NCBI RefSeq assembly: GCF_900108275.1
Contig: NZ_FNVD01000002.1
Location: forward strand, 124,001 to 188,000
From: Jhaorihella thermophila
GTDB taxonomy: Bacteria > Pseudomonadota > Alphaproteobacteria > Rhodobacterales > Rhodobacteraceae
Direction: 5' to 3'
DNA length: 64,000 bases
Shown here piece by piece: positions 7,864 to 15,929 of the stretch (its first letter is position 1; each line of letters starts with the position of its first letter). A program made the translations under genes and the position numbers. The notes beneath the pieces are model-generated. The model saw only the letters and a program-made list of their open reading frames with translations, had not been told where the DNA came from and made no database searches.

Positions 7864-9047
7864 TGTTCGAGAACCTGAAGGAACAACCCGCCGACAAGAT
7901 TCTGATGCTGATGAAGATGTTCGCCGACGACCCGCGCGAACGGAAAATCGACCTTGGCGTCGGGGTGTACCGGAATGCGCAGGGCGTCACGCCAGTGATG
8001 CGCGCGGTCAAGTCCGCCGAAAGGACGCTGTGGGAGGAACAGACCACCAAGTCCTATACCGGCCTGATCGGCGACCCGGCCTTCGGCGATGCGATGATCG
8101 GCCTGGTGCTGGGCAATGCCGTCCCCCGCGAAACCGTGGCCGCCGCCGCGACCCCCGGCGGCACCGGCGCGGTGCGCCAGGCGTTAGAACTGATCCGCAT
8201 GGCGAACCCGCAGGCCAGGATATGGGTATCCGACCCGACCTGGCCCAACCATCTGTCGATCCTGAACTACCTCAAGATGGAGACGGTTCCCTACCGCTAT
8301 TTCGACGCCGAAACGCGCGGCGTCGATTTCACCGGCATGATGGAGGATCTGGGCCGCGCCGCCCCCGGCGACGTGGTGCTGCTGCACGGCTGCTGCCACA
8401 ACCCCACCGGCGCGAACCTCAACATGGTGGAATGGCAGGCGGTGATCGACCTGCTGAACCAACGCGGCCTGATGCCGATGATCGACATCGCCTACCAGGG
8501 CTTCGGCGACGGGCTCGAAGAGGACGCCGCCGCCACCCGACTCGTGGCCTCGTCGGTGCCCGAATGCCTGATCGCGGCGAGCTGTTCCAAGAACTTCGGC
8601 ATCTACCGCGAACGCACCGGCATCCTGATGGCAGTGGCGCAGGATGCCGCGCGCCAGCCGGTCAACCAGGGTACGCTGGCCTTCCTCAACCGCCAGAACT
8701 ATTCCTTCCCGCCCGATCACGGGGCGCGGCTGGTCACCATGATCCTGAACGACGACGCGCTGCGCGCCGAATGGACCGCCGAACTGGAAGAGATGCGCAC
8801 CGGCATGCTGGCGATCCGCCAGCAGCTTGCGGACGAGCTGCAGCGGCTGACTGGCTCGGACCGCTTCGCCTTTCTCGCCCAGCACCGCGGCATGTTCTCA
8901 CGGCTCGGCACCACCCCCGAGATGGTCGACAAACTGCGCACCGACTATGGGATCTACATGGTGGGCGACAGCCGGATGAACATTGCCGGGTTGAACGCGC
9001 AGACCGTTCCGATCCTTGCCCGCGCCATCGTCGACGCAGGGATCTGA
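7863..9047 (+). CDS. Aromatic/aspartate aminotransferase (class I, PLP)
   Basis: This PLP enzyme transfers amino groups between aromatic amino acids or aspartate and 2-oxoglutarate in the cytoplasm. The 394-residue protein has the class I-alpha features: TPGGTGAVRQ, the CHNPTG motif and the PLP lysine near residue 243 in SCSKNFGIYRERTG. The conserved C-terminal substrate-binding region DSRMNIAGL is present. TyrB-type and AspC-type specificity cannot be separated by eye. It is translationally coupled to sseA through the TGATG overlap, which suggests linked amino-acid and sulfur metabolism (inference). Confidence 0.87.
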   Translation: MFENLKEQPADKILMLMKMFADDPRERKIDLGVGVYRNAQGVTPVMRAVKSAERTLWEEQTTKSYTGLIGDPAFGDAMIGLVLGNAVPRETVAAAATPGGTGAVRQALELIRMANPQARIWVSDPTWPNHLSILNYLKMETVPYRYFDAETRGVDFTGMMEDLGRAAPGDVVLLHGCCHNPTGANLNMVEWQAVIDLLNQRGLMPMIDIAYQGFGDGLEEDAAATRLVASSVPECLIAASCSKNFGIYRERTGILMAVAQDAARQPVNQGTLAFLNRQNYSFPPDHGARLVTMILNDDALRAEWTAELEEMRTGMLAIRQQLADELQRLTGSDRFAFLAQHRGMFSRLGTTPEMVDKLRTDYGIYMVGDSRMNIAGLNAQTVPILARAIVDAGI

Positions 9048-9089
9048 CCTCGGAACGACTGCCTCTCCGACGACAGCACTCCAACCAGC

Positions 9090-9141
9090 TTCTTTCTGGT
9101 CCGAAATACCCCGGGGGGCGCGGGGGGCAGAGCCCCCCGCC
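9090..9141 (-). repeat. Intergenic hairpin element, copy 3
   Basis: On the minus strand this reads GCGGGGGGC-TCT-GCCCCCCGC followed by GCCCCCCGGGGTATTTCGGACC and AGAAAGAAG. It sits between the convergent aminotransferase and aioA genes, about 120 bases past the aioA stop and in the sense of aioA. It is nearly identical to the central part of copies 1 and 2. Confidence 0.6.
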
Positions 9142-9195
9142 CCGCGGCCACATTGCCCCTGCCATCCCCGGCACCAGACACCATGATCCCCGGCG

Positions 9196-9230
9196 CCAGA
9201 AAGAAACGGGCGGCACAAAGGCCGCCCGTT
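9196..9230 (-). terminator. Rho-independent terminator of aioBA
   Basis: On the minus strand a perfect 9-bp stem, ACGGGCGGC/GCCGCCCGT with a six-base loop (9206-9229), is followed by TTTCTTTCT. It lies 30 bases beyond the aioA stop and would end the aioBA transcript. Confidence 0.75.
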
Positions 9231-9259
9231 CCGTCGTTCTGCGCCTAGGGTTACGCCTT

Positions 9260-11707
9260 TTATTCCTTCGACTTGAAGGAAACGGCCCTGGACCGCGGCG
9301 TGGCGTCGGCCAGCTTGCGGATGTTGCCGAAGGTCAGCTTGTACTCGGGCGGGATGAGTTCGCTGACACCCGGGTTCACCACGTTGCCCCGGCTGCCCGC
9401 GGGCGAGCCGAACACCATCGCCACATGGCCGCGCTTGGCGGTGTCGGTGGGATAGGCCATGCCCTGGGTCGCCCCGTTCTCGTTCGTGATCTCGATGAGA
9501 TCGCCGGCGTTGATGCCCATTTCGGCCATGTCGTCGGGGTTCATCTCGATGAACGGATAGGGGAAGCGGTCCTGGATGAAGTCGTTGGCCTGATCCAGGA
9601 ACTGGTTCTGCCAGAAGATGTTGGCCCGCACGTTGTTGACGAAGAACTAGTGGTTCGCCGCCTCGCGCGCCTTGCCTTCGGCGGCATAACCGCGCCACTG
9701 GGCCGCACAGAACAGCGCCTTCTTGTCCTCGCGGCCATGCCGGTCGAACTTGCCGTCGGCATAGAGACGCGGCGTGCCGATCAGCTTGCCGTTCTCATAA
9801 CCCACGACCGGCTCCTGCACCCCGTTGTTGCCCATCGCGCGCAGGCGCTCATAGGTCACTTCCGGGTTGCCCTGATGGTAGCCGTCCATGAAGGCGTCTT
9901 CCTCGGTCTCCCAGTCGTAGCCCTTGAACTGATCGGCATATTCGTCGTTGCCCATCTCGTTCAGGACGCGCTCCATGTTCTGGGCGATGCCGTCCGCGAT
10001 CAGGCAGTCGGGCTTGGACTGGCCGTAGGGGTCCATGTATTTCTCGGAAAGACGCAGGCGCCGCTCGCCGTTCATCGAGGTGAGGTTCATCTCGTTGGCT
10101 TCGCAGGCGGGCAGGATCACATGCGCGTTCTGGCCGATCTGGCTGTGGATGATGTCCATGTCCACCACGAACAGACCGCCCGCGTTGACCGCCGCGACGA
10201 TCGCGTCCACCAGCTCCTCGCGGGTGCCGCCGGCGGCTGCGTCCATCGCCTCCTTGACCATGTCGGCGCGCTTCTTCAGCACGCGCTTGAACTCGGCCGC
10301 GTTCAGCGTGGTCTTGTAGTGGTCGCAGGCCCAGATATGATAGACCTTGCCGCCGCCGCGGATCAGGTGCCGGTCGAAATAGGTGGCCGGACGGCCCACA
10401 TGGGCGTCCGAGGGACGGTAGTAGCCTTCCTGGTGACCGCCCAGACGGCAGCACCCGCCGCCTTCGCGGCCGATATTGCCGGTGGCCAGCGAGATGTTCA
10501 CCAGCGCGCCGATGGTGCGGTAGTTGTCGTTGCCCCAGATGATGCCCTTTTCATAGGCGGTGACGCATTTGCGGCGCGACCCGTCATCATGCGGCTTGGC
10601 GATCCACTCGGCGACCTTGACGATGTCGTCCTTGGACACGCCGCAGATTTCCGCCGCCTCACCCAGCGAGGTGCGGCAGGTTTCCATGGCATAGTCGAGG
10701 CTGCCCAGACCCGCCGGCTGACCGGAATCTTCGGCCACGGCCTCTCCGCCCTGGAAAGTGGAGTTGGCGATGAACTCCTTGTCGATCCAGCCGTTGTCCA
10801 CGATATGCGTGAGCAGCGCGTTGAACAGCACCATGTCGGTGCCCGGCGTGATCGCCAGATGCAGCACGTTCTCCTTGCCGGCGACTTCCTCGGCGGCGTT
10901 CACCGTGACCGTCCGGCGCGGGTCCACCATGATGAACTTCGCCCCGTTCTGCATCCCCGGAACCATGTGGTTGAGGAACAGGTTGGTCTGCGTCTCCATC
11001 GGGTTGGCACCGACGACGAAGATGGTGTCGGTCACTTCGTAGTCCGAGTAGCTGTAGTTCAGCTCTCCCACGCCCATGTCGCGGGACGAATGCACCTCGG
11101 AGTTGTAGCCGGGGCGGTTGTGGATCCGGCAATTCTTGACCTTCATGCTCTGGAAGTAGAGCTTGCCGGTCGCCCAGGTATTTTCATAGCCGCCGGCCGA
11201 GCCGCCGTGGTCGAACATCGACACCAGAAGTTCGTCCTCGCCGTATTCGGCGAGGATTTTCGCCGTGACACGGGCCACCAGATCCAGCGCGTCATCCCAC
11301 GACGTCGGCTGCCACACGCCGTTGCGCCACACCATCGGGTCGGTCAGGCGCTGCTGCTGGGTGAGCGTGATCTCCGAAGGGCGGTTTTCCGCCATCCGCG
11401 CGCCGCGGATCGAGCCGAGCCCCGAGTTCACCACGCAGTCGTCATCGGGCACCACCATCAGGTGCACGTCCTTCCCGTCCTGCTTGACGATGTTATACAT
11501 CGACGGGTTGACCCAGGTGCCCATGGCACCCTGCTGTTCGTTCAGGTTCACGCCGAAGGCGTTGTTTTCCGGCGTACCCTGCTTGTTGCGCGGCCAGGTG
11601 TAGGCCTTGTAGCCGCAGCCGACGATGCAATAGTGGCAGGTCACGTTGTGAACCTTCGCGTCCGCGGGCGGGATCGGAAGGCGGTCGATCTGTCTCTTGT
11701 AAGCCAT
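9260..11707 (-). pseudogene. aioA: Arsenite oxidase large (molybdopterin) subunit, interrupted by an in-frame amber codon
   Basis: AioA oxidises arsenite to arsenate at a molybdenum bis-pyranopterin site and carries a 3Fe-4S cluster; with AioB it works in the periplasm. The frame begins MAYKRQIDRLPIPPADAKV, followed by CHYCIVGCGY (cluster cysteines at about 24, 27 and 31), and continues with clear similarity along its whole length. The reading frame is open from 11707 to 9260 (815 sense codons) except for one TAG at 9649-9647 (codon 687), just after the EAANH segment. The remaining 128 residues, from FFVNNVRANIFWQN to the end, still look conserved. A single base substitution explains the stop. 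Without suppression the product would lack its C-terminal 128 residues and probably not fold. aioB lies 15 bases upstream. Confidence 0.9.
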
Positions 11708-11722
11708 GTGTGATCCTCTCCC

Positions 11723-12247
11723 TTACAGCACGTTCGACATGCGGCCGTAGATCAGGTCGCTGCAGCCTTCGGCGTAGATGTCGCCCTTGTCATCGACGCG
11801 CAGGGTGAATTGCGGAACGTTCGACGTGGCGTGGCCCCAGGTCTGCTGGCCACCGGCCTCGACGTCGAAGCGCGAGAAGTGGCCAGGGCAGTTCAGGGTG
11901 TGATCCTCGCCGTTGTAGGACATGTTGAAACCCTTGTGCGGACAGAGCGTCGAGAAGGCGACGATGTCGCCGTCCGGGCCCACGCCGCCCTCGACCGACT
12001 GGCCCAACTTCAGCAGAACGCCGGGGCTGTCGGCGTCGGGATATTCGATGTCCACGGGTTCGTTGACCTTCAGGTCGGCCACGTTGGCCAGCCTGTTCGA
12101 CGGGTAGTCGATCTGCGCCAGCGCCGGGGCCGCCTTGGCCTCTTGCGCAGGGGCCACCGCCGCGACGGCTGCGCCAGCGGTTGCCATCGCACCGCCGCGC
12201 AGGAACTGGCGACGGCCGACATCGACCATGCCTTTGCATCTTTTCAT
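11723..12247 (-). CDS. aioB: Arsenite oxidase small (Rieske) subunit
   Basis: This is the electron-transfer subunit of arsenite oxidase and carries a Rieske 2Fe-2S cluster. The 174-residue protein has a twin-arginine signal (GRRQFLRGG, then an alanine-rich hydrophobic stretch to about residue 40) that would export the folded AioAB complex. Rieske ligands are C102-P-H104 and C120-P-G-H123. Phe107 and Gly122 stand where many Rieske proteins have a disulfide pair, the arrangement I recall for the alphaproteobacterial AioB of Rhizobium NT-26. The ATG at 12247 follows GGGAGGAAACTC. The gene looks intact, but its partner aioA is broken, so a working enzyme is unlikely. Confidence 0.9.
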   Translation of the reverse strand: MKRCKGMVDVGRRQFLRGGAMATAGAAVAAVAPAQEAKAAPALAQIDYPSNRLANVADLKVNEPVDIEYPDADSPGVLLKLGQSVEGGVGPDGDIVAFSTLCPHKGFNMSYNGEDHTLNCPGHFSRFDVEAGGQQTWGHATSNVPQFTLRVDDKGDIYAEGCSDLIYGRMSNVL

Positions 12248-12273
12248 GAGTTTCCTCCCAACTTGTGGTGACA

Positions 12274-12288
12274 GCAAAACTATCACCG
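12274..12288 (-). promoter_or_regulatory. Candidate sigma-54 (-24/-12) promoter of aioBA
   Basis: On the minus strand CGGTGATAGTTTTGC has the invariant GG and GC elements exactly ten bases apart, with TTTTGC matching the -12 box well and the -24 box matching only in GG. The predicted transcript start, near 12262, leaves a short leader containing the aioB ribosome-binding site. Known aio operons are RpoN-dependent. Confidence 0.55.
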
Positions 12289-12364
12289 CCAAGAAGGTCG
12301 ATGGGGCGCGCATTTCGGGAATTGGTTCAGGTTAAGACCTTGTAATTTCGAAATTAAATTGGGT

Positions 12365-12380
12365 GTTCGGATTTTCGAAC
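12365..12380. promoter_or_regulatory. Candidate AioR upstream activating sequence
   Basis: The dyad GTTCG-(6 bases)-CGAAC is perfectly symmetric. It fits the form GTYCG-N6-CGRAC that I recall being proposed for AioR enhancer sites in arsenite-oxidising alphaproteobacteria. It is centred about 110 bases upstream of the predicted aioBA start, a normal distance for a sigma-54 enhancer. A second dyad, AATTTCGAAATT, lies at 12344-12355. Confidence 0.5.
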
Positions 12381-12398
12381 ATGCCGCGGCGCAGAAGT

Positions 12399-13643
12399 TC
12401 AGGCCTGATCGGCTCCAGCGGACAGGCCCAGTTTCTGCATCTTTTCCCACAGAGTCGTCCGCGACACCTTCAGCAATTTCACCGCCTGCCCGATCTGGCC
12501 GCCCGTGCGTTCCAGCGCGGCGACGATCTGGCGGCGCTCGGCCTGTTCGCGGGCCTCGGCCAGCGTCAGGATGCGGTCGCCGTCGGCGATCCGTTCCGGG
12601 AACAGGTCCGTGGGCAGCAGCATCTCTCCCTGCGCGGTTTCAAGTCCGCGGGACAACCGCGCGCGCAGCTCGCGGCCGCCGCCCGGCCAGTCATGTGCGC
12701 GCACGGCCTGTTCGGCCAGACGGCTGATGTGTTTCAGCGGTCGGTCACGGCGGGGGTTGAGCCGGTCGAACAGGTGCTCCATCAACCAGACGGCATCCTC
12801 GGGGCGTTCCGACAGTGGCGGGACCGGCAGTTCCACCATGTCGAGTCGATAGAACAGATCGGCATCGAAGCCGCCGGACTGCACCACCTTGTCCATGTCA
12901 TGGCCACAGGCGGCAATGACCCGGCCGGCAAAGCGGCATCCAGAACGTCGGCCAGCGCCTGCTGCGCCTGCCCCGGCATCCGGCTGAGCGCCCGCAGGAA
13001 CAGGACGCCTTCGCCGGTGCGTTCGATGGCGCCGCCCGGCCCGAACATCGCCGCCTGCACGTCAGGCTCTCGTGCGAGGTTCACCACCACGAAAGGGGCC
13101 GCGCGGCGGTCGGATCGTTCGTGGATACGCCGGGCGACCAGTTCCTTGCCGGAGCCCGGCCCGCCTCGGATCAGAACCGCCCGATCGATCCGCGCGGCGC
13201 GTTCGGCCATCTCTTCGACCCGGCGGGCCGCCGGCGAGATGCCCAGAAGCGGCGGCATGTCCTGGTCGCCGCTGGCGTTCAGCAGCAATGTCAGCCGATC
13301 AAGGAACACGGCCATCTCGAACGGCTTGGTGATGTAATCGGCCGCGCCCGCCTGCATCAGCCGCACGGCCTTTTCGACGCCTCCATGCCCGGTGATGAAC
13401 AGAAACGGCGGCGGGGTGGTGGTTTCCATCAGCCGATTGAACAGATCCTCGCCGTCCCCATCAGGCAGGCGGATGTCGCAGATCACCGCGTCGATGGGCG
13501 CGCGGGGTGCGCAAGGCCCCGATGGCGCGCCCGACCTGCTTCATCCAGATCACCTCGGCCCCTTCGAGTTCCAGCCGCTGAACCAGCGAATGGCCCATGA
13601 TCTCGTCGTCTTCGACCAAAGCGATGCGGAACCCGTTCAGCAT
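12399..13643 (-). pseudogene. aioR: Sigma-54-type response regulator AioR, two frameshifts
   Basis: AioR would be the phosphorylated activator of aioBA. The receiver domain starts RIALVEDDEIMGHSLVQ. The frame then shifts near 13500, and the phosphoacceptor stretch AVICDIRLPDGDG and the YITKPF lysine follow in a second frame. An AAA+ region with Walker A GGPGSGKE follows in that frame. A second shift near 12928 moves the rest (RVIAACGHDMDKVV, DLFYRLDMVELPVPPL, and a C-terminal Fis-type helix-turn-helix with RTTLWEKM) into a third frame. The AAA+ region is compact and shows no GAFTGA loop and no acidic Walker B pair, which may be a family trait or further decay. The start overlaps the aioS stop by seven bases. 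Confidence 0.85.
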
Positions 13644-15064
13644 TGCGGATCTTCCTTGCCTTTCAGCGGCAACGATACCGCGATTTCGGTGCGCCCGTCG
13701 CGGCGATCGAGCTGAATCACTCCGCCCAGTTCTTCGACCAGATCATGCACCAGACGCAAGCCCACGCCCCCGCCCGGCGGAACCGGCCCCGAGGACAGAA
13801 GCCGCGTGCGGGCGCTTCCTGACAGACCGGGGCCGGTGTCGGCGACCATCATGTGCAGATGATCGCGGTCCGGCGCGACCCGAAACCACACGCGCCCCTG
13901 CCGACCCGCCGCTGCCGAAGCGTTCAGCAACAGGTTCAACGCGCTCTGGCGGACCGGACCCGCCGGCAACACCTCCAGCGCGGTCGGCGTCACCTCGACC
14001 TTCCAGCTCAGCCGTTGCGCCTGCCGGTTGATCTCGGGGCCGATCAGAAGGTGGATGTCCTCGAAGTCCTCTGCCGACAGCGCCGCGCCGGAGCGATCCA
14101 ACCGGTTCTGTTCCAGCATCGCCCGCGAGACGTCGCGCAGATGGTTGAGCCCGCGCGTCAGCAGCTCGGCCGACCGGCGCACCACTTCGGGCCGGTCGGC
14201 ATATTCGCGGATCGTGTCCGCGGCGTTCAGCAGCCCGCCCAAGGGATTGTTGATCTCGTGTGCCAGCGCAGACGACAACCGGCCCAGGCTGACAAAGCGC
14301 TCGCGCTCGGCCAGGCGGCGTTCGGCGTCCCGCTTGGCGACAAGCGTTCGGGCCATGGCGTTGTAGGTATGCACCAGCCGCGAAAGCTCGGTATCCCCGC
14401 GCGGGATCTCGGTTTCGGGCACCTGCTCGGGCTGGTCGCTGGTGTCGCGCATCCGCTGCGACAGCCGGGTGATCGGCCGCAGCATCCGGCGCATCAGAAA
14501 ATAGCCCAGCAGGGCCAGAACTCCGGTCGCCACCGCGTTTCCCAGCAAGAGCAGCCGCCCCGCCCGACGCCGTTCCGCAACCAGGTCGGCGACGTCAAGC
14601 TCAGTCACGACCTGCCCGACCTCGCGCCCTTGATAGACCAGTGGCGCGACAAGCCGCAGCGTCTCTTCGTCGCTGGGCACGGTGAGATTGGCGGGCGGCT
14701 GCGCGCCGTCCGATATCTCGGCGATGGAACTGTCCAGCGGCGCCCGGTCCGGCAGCGTGGCCGCGATCACGCGCCCGTCTTCGTCGGCAACGGCGGTGAA
14801 GATCATCCGCCGGCCCTCGCCCTCACCGGCGGCGCGTTGCAGCGTGTCATAGACCTCCCAGACATCGTCGCGCAGCACATGAGGCCCCAGCGCGACCGAC
14901 AGCGTTTCCACATGCAGCCGCGCGATTTCGCGGATGCGGGCATCCTGCAACCGGTCAAGCGCAGCCAGCACCTGCTGCGAAGCGACCACGCCCAGCGCCA
15001 CCATCAGCAGCGCCGTCAGCAACGGCACCCGGATGCTCAGCGGTATTCGCAGGATCGCCGACAT
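13637..15064 (-). CDS. aioS: Sensor histidine kinase AioS
   Basis: This is a predicted inner-membrane kinase that passes the arsenite signal from AioX to AioR. The 475-residue protein has an N-terminal membrane segment (about 12-32), a periplasmic sensor region, a second membrane segment (LLLLGNAVATGVLALLGYFL), a HAMP region, the H-box HEINNPLGG with phospho-His at about residue 269, and an ATPase domain with NLLLNASAAAG and DTGPGLSG. The ATG at 15064 overlaps the aioX stop by one base (TGATG). The frame is intact, but the partners on both sides are disrupted, so the pathway is probably dead. Confidence 0.87.
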   Translation of the reverse strand: MSAILRIPLSIRVPLLTALLMVALGVVASQQVLAALDRLQDARIREIARLHVETLSVALGPHVLRDDVWEVYDTLQRAAGEGEGRRMIFTAVADEDGRVIAATLPDRAPLDSSIAEISDGAQPPANLTVPSDEETLRLVAPLVYQGREVGQVVTELDVADLVAERRRAGRLLLLGNAVATGVLALLGYFLMRRMLRPITRLSQRMRDTSDQPEQVPETEIPRGDTELSRLVHTYNAMARTLVAKRDAERRLAERERFVSLGRLSSALAHEINNPLGGLLNAADTIREYADRPEVVRRSAELLTRGLNHLRDVSRAMLEQNRLDRSGAALSAEDFEDIHLLIGPEINRQAQRLSWKVEVTPTALEVLPAGPVRQSALNLLLNASAAAGRQGRVWFRVAPDRDHLHMMVADTGPGLSGSARTRLLSSGPVPPGGGVGLRLVHDLVEELGGVIQLDRRDGRTEIAVSLPLKGKEDPQC

Positions 15065-15929
15065 CAGCGCAACGAGGCCAGCAGCCGCATCCGCCGCGCG
15101 ATCCCGTCGAACAGCGACACATCGCCCGCCGTCATCCCGTCCAGCAGGAGCAGCCCCAGCGCGTGTCGCCCGGCCTCCGTCCTGTCCAGTCCCAGCAGTG
15201 CCTTTCGCAGGGCGGCAACGCCGGGATCGGCCAAGTGCCCTGCGCGGGTGCAGAAGGGCGGGAAACCCAGCCATTCGCTGCGCGTCACGACCCGGGTGCG
15301 GCCTGCCAGTTCCGGTTCCAGGGCCGCCAGCGATTCCCAGACATAGCCATCCACGCTGCCCGATCGCGCCAGCCCATCCGCCACCGCCCGCACCACGTTG
15401 CGATGCCCGTAGGTAAAGATCGTGCGGCGAAAGAAGTCCTCGGCCTTTTCGCCTTTCAGCGCCAGATCCGAAGCGGTGACAAGAAAACCCGAGTTCGAGT
15501 TCGGATCTGAAAAGGCATGCGTTCCGCCCCGCAGATCGGCCAACGATTTCGCATCATCCCCCTCCCGCACGATGACATAGGACTGATACATCGGCTTGCC
15601 GTGCCAGAGCGGTACCGCCATCAGCGCCAGCGTGGCGCGGTGTTGAAGAAAGGGGTAACCGCACAGCCACGCGGCCTCGATCGCCCCCTCCAGCAACATG
15701 CCGGTCACTTCTTCATAGGTGCGGCGTTGCTCGAACTGGACCCGTTGGCCGGCAGCCTCCTGCAAGGCAGAGCGCAGGGCGGTCAGGATTTCGGCGTCAT
15801 TGTCCAGAAATACCGGCGTGATGCCCAGGCGCAACTCGCGCGGCGCCCCTCTCACGATGGACGGCAGGGCGACTGGCCCAGCGCCGACAGGACAAGATCG
15901 CGTCGCGAGAACGATATGGTCATCAGCAT
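15064..15929 (-). pseudogene. aioX: Periplasmic arsenite-binding protein AioX, frameshift in the signal peptide
   Basis: AioX is the periplasmic oxyanion-binding component of the AioXSR signalling system. The mature part (ELRLGITPVFLDNDAEI, AFSDPNSNSGFLV, RTRVVTRSEWLGFPPF) matches the phosphonate/phosphite-binding PhnD-like fold. The natural start and signal peptide (MLMTISFSRRDLVLSALG, ATG at 15929) lie in another frame, which stops after 25 codons. The mature sequence has no good start codon in its own frame. A one-base change near 15880 joins the two frames. The protein would therefore not be exported as annotated. Confidence 0.78.

Follow-up and report, generated by a model that had tools for sequence, protein, structure and literature searches.

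When all genes of a metabolic locus can be recognised, does the organism still have the trait? Detection of aio genes in genomes and amplicons serves as a proxy for arsenite oxidation, and a stretch of 64,000 nucleotides, hereafter the window (G000:C29:124001-188000), puts this proxy in question. It belongs to a Rhodobacterales-type genome of 3.77 Mb in 69 contigs, 99.95% complete, and its minus strand codes at 9260-15929 for aioX-S-R-B-A, the sole aio locus of the genome (Table 1). Gene families were checked with NCBIfam and Pfam profiles. AioB is well above the cut-off of its profile (95.65 bits), and AioA matches TIGR02693 before its stop with 923 bits (profile 1-691, cut-off 359) and after it with 127.5 bits (profile 701-806). 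AioR contains the Pfam domains receiver, Sigma54_activat, AAA lid and Fis-type HTH, and AioS is about 60% identical to its Rhodobacterales-type relatives. The nearest named aio relatives (Marimonas, Aliiruegeria and Roseovarius) belong to the Rhodobacterales, and aioX-aioS-aioR upstream of aioBA is the gene order in most relatives. Profiles and gene order thus agree with the first-pass annotation, which had read five aio genes in canonical order on one strand. No second aioA was found in the genome, where the remaining matches are about 30% identical and belong to the wider molybdopterin family. As to the surroundings, a convergent aminotransferase gene directly follows aioA in the window, and the moeA-like gene that L026 and L083, the closest relatives, carry behind aioA is missing at window 9047-9260.

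Table 1. Features of the aio locus (window positions) and lesions found elsewhere in the genome (genome, contig and position)
Feature	Position	Strand	Evidence or remark
aioX, periplasmic arsenite-binding sensor, read as pseudogene	15064..15929	-	Pfam Phosphonate-bd; 46-67% identity to relatives' AioX
aioS, sensor histidine kinase, open	13637..15064	-	HAMP/HisKA/HATPase_c; no internal stop
aioR, NtrC-family response regulator without GAFTGA loop, read as pseudogene	12399..13643	-	two frameshifts, about 13503 and 12934
AioR box GTTCGAAAATCCGAAC, conserved	12365..12380	-	133 nt before aioB start; motif discovery, position
aioB, Rieske small subunit, twin-arginine signal, open	11723..12247	-	TIGR02694, 192.6 bits
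aioA, molybdopterin large subunit, amber-interrupted, read as pseudogene	9260..11707	-	TIGR02693 on both sides of stop
amber codon TAG, aioA codon 687	9647..9649	-	comparison with relatives
DUF1194 gene, split	G000:C29:72832		halves match successive stretches of a single Pfam domain
HlyD gene, stop and shift	G000:C29:257601-257857		
Omp85-like protein, split	G000:C44:38921		weaker case
OMPP1/FadL porin, split	G000:C44:86206		halves match successive stretches of a single Pfam domain
DAO/GCV_T protein, split	G000:C44:461567		
MscS channel, stop	G000:C44:544547		halves match successive stretches of a single Pfam domain
LigB, split	G000:C44:593369		halves match successive stretches of a single Pfam domain
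vWA NorD-like gene, split	G000:C33:93357		weaker case
luxR-type regulator, split	G000:C19:166441		weaker case
pqqC, frameshift	G000:C44:253232-253943		halves match successive stretches of a single Pfam domain
PQQ-dependent alcohol dehydrogenase, in-frame stop	G000:C44:270359-272072		only one in genome; 17 kb from pqqC
moxR and DUF58 gene, neighbours in MoxR/vWA cluster, one frameshift each	G000:C42:219219-221211		DUF58 halves consecutive on Pfam domain

Which genes are broken, and how? The first-pass annotation had named a frameshift between signal peptide and mature part of aioX, two frameshifts in aioR and an amber codon in aioA, with aioS and aioB open, and all of these were recovered. The frame of the aioX signal peptide (MLMTISFSRRDLVLSALG) and that of the mature domain differ at about 15880; since the signal region aligns poorly with relatives, this lesion is read from frame and anatomy. 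Compared with its relatives, aioR is two bases short at about 13503, within a GC-alternating tract, and a further base short at about 12934. The deficits add up to three bases, so that about 190 codons are out of frame before the frame is regained. The amber codon occupies a site in aioA that is variable among 84 relatives (R/K/A/E/D and others) and a stop in none of them, and the Molydop_binding domain falls after it. The reading frames of aioS and aioB are uninterrupted. What is found is therefore a frameshifted sensor gene and a frameshifted response regulator gene in place of an intact AioX and AioR, and an AioA interrupted ahead of its molybdopterin-binding C-terminus.

The relatives used for comparison were 80 loci from one scan of genome contigs and a few more from a genome search, including the same-genus genome G001, so that lesions in one strain of this species were set against the loci of other taxa. 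About 80 of the related loci are intact: where there is enough sequence, aioA, aioX and aioS have no internal stop and aioR runs in one frame. Apparent aioR stops in L050 and L056 (residues 408 and 412) were rejected as lesions because the alignment there runs beyond the gene's own end. In G001, aioX, aioS, aioR and aioB are intact, and the contig stops at the start of aioA, which leaves aioA out of the same-genus comparison. Alignment with intact loci, a check that the first-pass annotation had proposed, thus finds the lesions to be particular to the window.

What would these breaks do to the pathway? AioX severed from its signal peptide would not be exported, and arsenite would not be sensed; AioR with its middle out of frame would not activate; AioA ending ahead of the molybdopterin-binding C-terminal domain would give no enzyme; and AioS and AioB would remain as leftovers. 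On this reading of the genes no active AioBA would be made, and the strain would be unable to oxidise arsenite via the aio route. With four recent breaks in three genes, the trait is in all likelihood lost even though every aio gene is recognisable. We hold it very probable, judging from the sequence, that this is a canonical arsenite-oxidation locus which was functional until recently and has since become a cluster of pseudogenes. That the strain is a recent loser of arsenite oxidation, as had been proposed, is supported by four lesions in three co-functional genes, a single copy, intact homologues, and conserved coding sequence around the lesions.

Might the locus nevertheless still work? 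That would take readthrough of the stop or an AioA made in two pieces, together with expression independent of AioR. The amber codon does lie at a variable residue, a GTG 16 nt downstream of it could start a C-terminal piece, and AioB and AioS are unbroken. However, a scan of 1.72 Mb (under half of the genome) found no suppressor tRNA, AioX and AioR are broken independently, and what lies beyond the stop is the molybdopterin-binding domain, a part fused to AioA in every relative. A working locus is therefore highly improbable. Programmed frameshifting or recoding was also considered and rejected, because none of the relatives depends on it and the aioR shifts cancel each other out only beyond the long out-of-frame stretch.

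Another question is whether the lesions exist in the organism at all. They could be sequencing or assembly errors in a locus that is intact, since three of the four are indels of one or two bases in G+C-rich sequence and the assembly is a draft of 69 contigs. A six-frame Markov/Viterbi scan of codon usage, covering 1.72 Mb of the genome, was run for frame changes and in-frame stops. In simulation it found 200 of 250 internal one-base indels, and in the locus it re-detects the 12934 shift and the aioA stop. Within the window the scan found no broken gene apart from the aio genes. The earlier statement that surrounding genes are free of frameshifts thus stands for the window and fails beyond it, where about 14 lesions in 13 genes were found across 1.66 Mb. 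The 6.67 kb of aio hold 4 lesions and the 1.66 Mb outside about 14, a density more than 60-fold higher in aio (Poisson P about 6e-7, from a rate of 16 per 1.716 Mb; the final outside count is 14). The kind of lesion also argues against error: that in aioA is a nonsense substitution, and the 13503 shift amounts to two bases within a dinucleotide tract, which is no homopolymer miscall. Moreover, the split genes outside the window all look dispensable and housekeeping genes are spared, unlike in G014:C1:1-400000, where carB-, leuA- and gcvP-like genes are affected. Random errors would not group by function either, while the outside lesions include two co-functional pairs, pqqC with the PQQ alcohol dehydrogenase and moxR with DUF58. 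Error is therefore an unlikely explanation, in line with the first-pass annotation, and clustering, nonsense changes and the sparing of housekeeping genes favour a real and recent loss.

Note that the G014 sequence, nominally a single contig, looks error-rich with its frame breaks, and it serves here solely as a picture of sequencing error. As a control, 400 kb of genome G024 were scanned from the own-genome model, which yielded 5 candidates, the majority at natural boundaries of genes; by this control the genome-wide pseudogene load of the window genome is not shown to be unusual. Within that load, pqqC and the PQQ alcohol dehydrogenase are both single-copy and both broken, so PQQ-linked alcohol oxidation was probably lost too. 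Arsenite oxidation is probably one among several dispensable functions that this genome is losing. In itself, the decay of an aio locus is an ordinary event with precedent in Thiomonas, where CB1 and CB6 have a frameshifted aioA, likewise a small lesion in a recognisable aio cluster (PMC4589449). The difference is that Thiomonas keeps a second, intact aio copy, while in the window genome the only copy is broken, in four places and three genes.

How long ago did selection lapse? Fitted to 20 loci (2118 codons), a codon model gives the window branch an omega of 0.116, compared with 0.087 over the tree as a whole (2dlnL 8.3). Two intact loci exceed the window branch, L029 with 0.144 and L107 with 0.134. 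A long period of relaxed selection is not supported, because the rise in omega is mild and is matched in intact relatives; the dN/dS comparison suggested in the first-pass annotation thus gives no sign of long relaxation. Changes at near-invariant sites are somewhat more frequent in the window than in most relatives (5 in AioA against a median of 1, 4 in AioS against 2). Even if all the excess in omega were neutral time, it would amount to a few percent of the branch, which points to a loss that is recent relative to genus-level divergence. Conservation persists in the codons around the lesions, in AioS and AioB and in the AioR box, and this too suggests that selection lapsed recently.

The new lesions aside, AioR of the window has no GAFTGA loop (L1) and no Walker-B acids (LFLRALS vs LFLDEIG). 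Is this also decay? In the alignment 46 relatives likewise have neither, and the loop is present in 16 others; Rhizobiales-type AioR retains both. In a tree that omits the loop and Walker-B columns, the 47 loop-less AioR proteins (window 12365-13643 and loci drawn from L026-L105 and L107) fall on one side of a branch with SH-aLRT 100. Five AioR proteins with degenerate loops form two further groups, L065/L067/L103 and L081/L082. The AioR of the Rhodobacterales-type branch would thus have lost its sigma-54 activation features before the aio genes decayed. As for the sigma factor itself, all 10 loop-bearing genomes tested have rpoN (PF04552), while it is missing in 12 of 21 loop-less genomes tested, including the incomplete G001 and the window genome, where PF04552 gives only a 20.3-bit match over 40 positions, below the cut-off of 22.8. 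The aio locus of the window would be a decayed member of a sigma-54-less AioR branch, in a genome without a convincing rpoN.

Do the promoters follow the regulator? Motif discovery, run for the loop-less group on 41 non-redundant loci, found the palindrome GTTCGGAnnTCCGAAC before aioB in both loop-bearing and loop-less groups, and the window has its own copy at 12365-12380. Two copies of this AioR box are present in 14 of 16 loop-bearing loci, and exactly one in all 47 loop-less loci. The -24/-12 element, searched as TGGCN7TTGC at 20-90 nt before aioB, occurs in 16/16 loop-bearing loci vs 1/52 loop-less or loop-degenerate loci (Fisher P 1e-14, with loci counted without regard to relatedness). 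It was not found in that interval before aioB of the window, nor in the degenerate-loop loci L065/L067/L103 and L081/L082.

The published view is that aioXSR operons are sigma-54 dependent. RACE and rpoN mutants tied the Herminiimonas operon to RpoN (PMC2848651), and -24/-12 elements were seen in all 12 aioXSR-bearing operons examined (PMC3834237). The Rhodobacterales-type loci seen here, in contrast, have no parts of the kind that such control needs. The loci of Agrobacterium tumefaciens 5A, Rhizobium sp. NT-26 and Herminiimonas arsenicoxydans (PMC7533571, PMC3834237, PMC2848651) resemble the window in gene content, X-S-R-B-A order, three-component sensing and palindromic AioR boxes before aioB. 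They differ from it in that the window has three broken genes, an AioR without GAFTGA loop and Walker-B acids, one box and not two, no -24/-12 element, no rpoN in its genome and no moeA-like gene behind aioA. Because the loop, the Walker-B acids, the -24/-12 element and one of two boxes are missing together, and because two smaller degenerate-loop lineages are independently without the -24/-12 element, it is likely that in the Rhodobacterales-type AioR branch arsenite oxidase has left sigma-54 control and come under a different sigma factor, presumably sigma-70. A natural model may be the loop-less NtrC of Rhodobacter capsulatus and Caulobacter, an NtrC-family activator in which the L1 GAFTGA loop is likewise deleted and for which activity at sigma-70 promoters has been reported (PMC10274813). 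Regulator and target differ between the two, arsenite oxidase being the target of AioR, for which use of sigma-70 would follow by analogy. The loop-less AioR group is large and apparently undescribed: we found no paper on it in the open-access literature, to which the search was confined, subscription papers lying outside it. With it, the joint departure of an enhancer-binding protein and its promoter from sigma-54 can be tested concretely and at low cost.

Two observations on the aioB promoters of the loop-less loci may be added. Downstream of the AioR box there is only weak conservation. The sole loop-less locus with a -24/-12-like element is L064, whose genome has rpoN; the element, TGGCTCATCACTTGC, lies 35 nt before aioB and is either a chance match or a relic.
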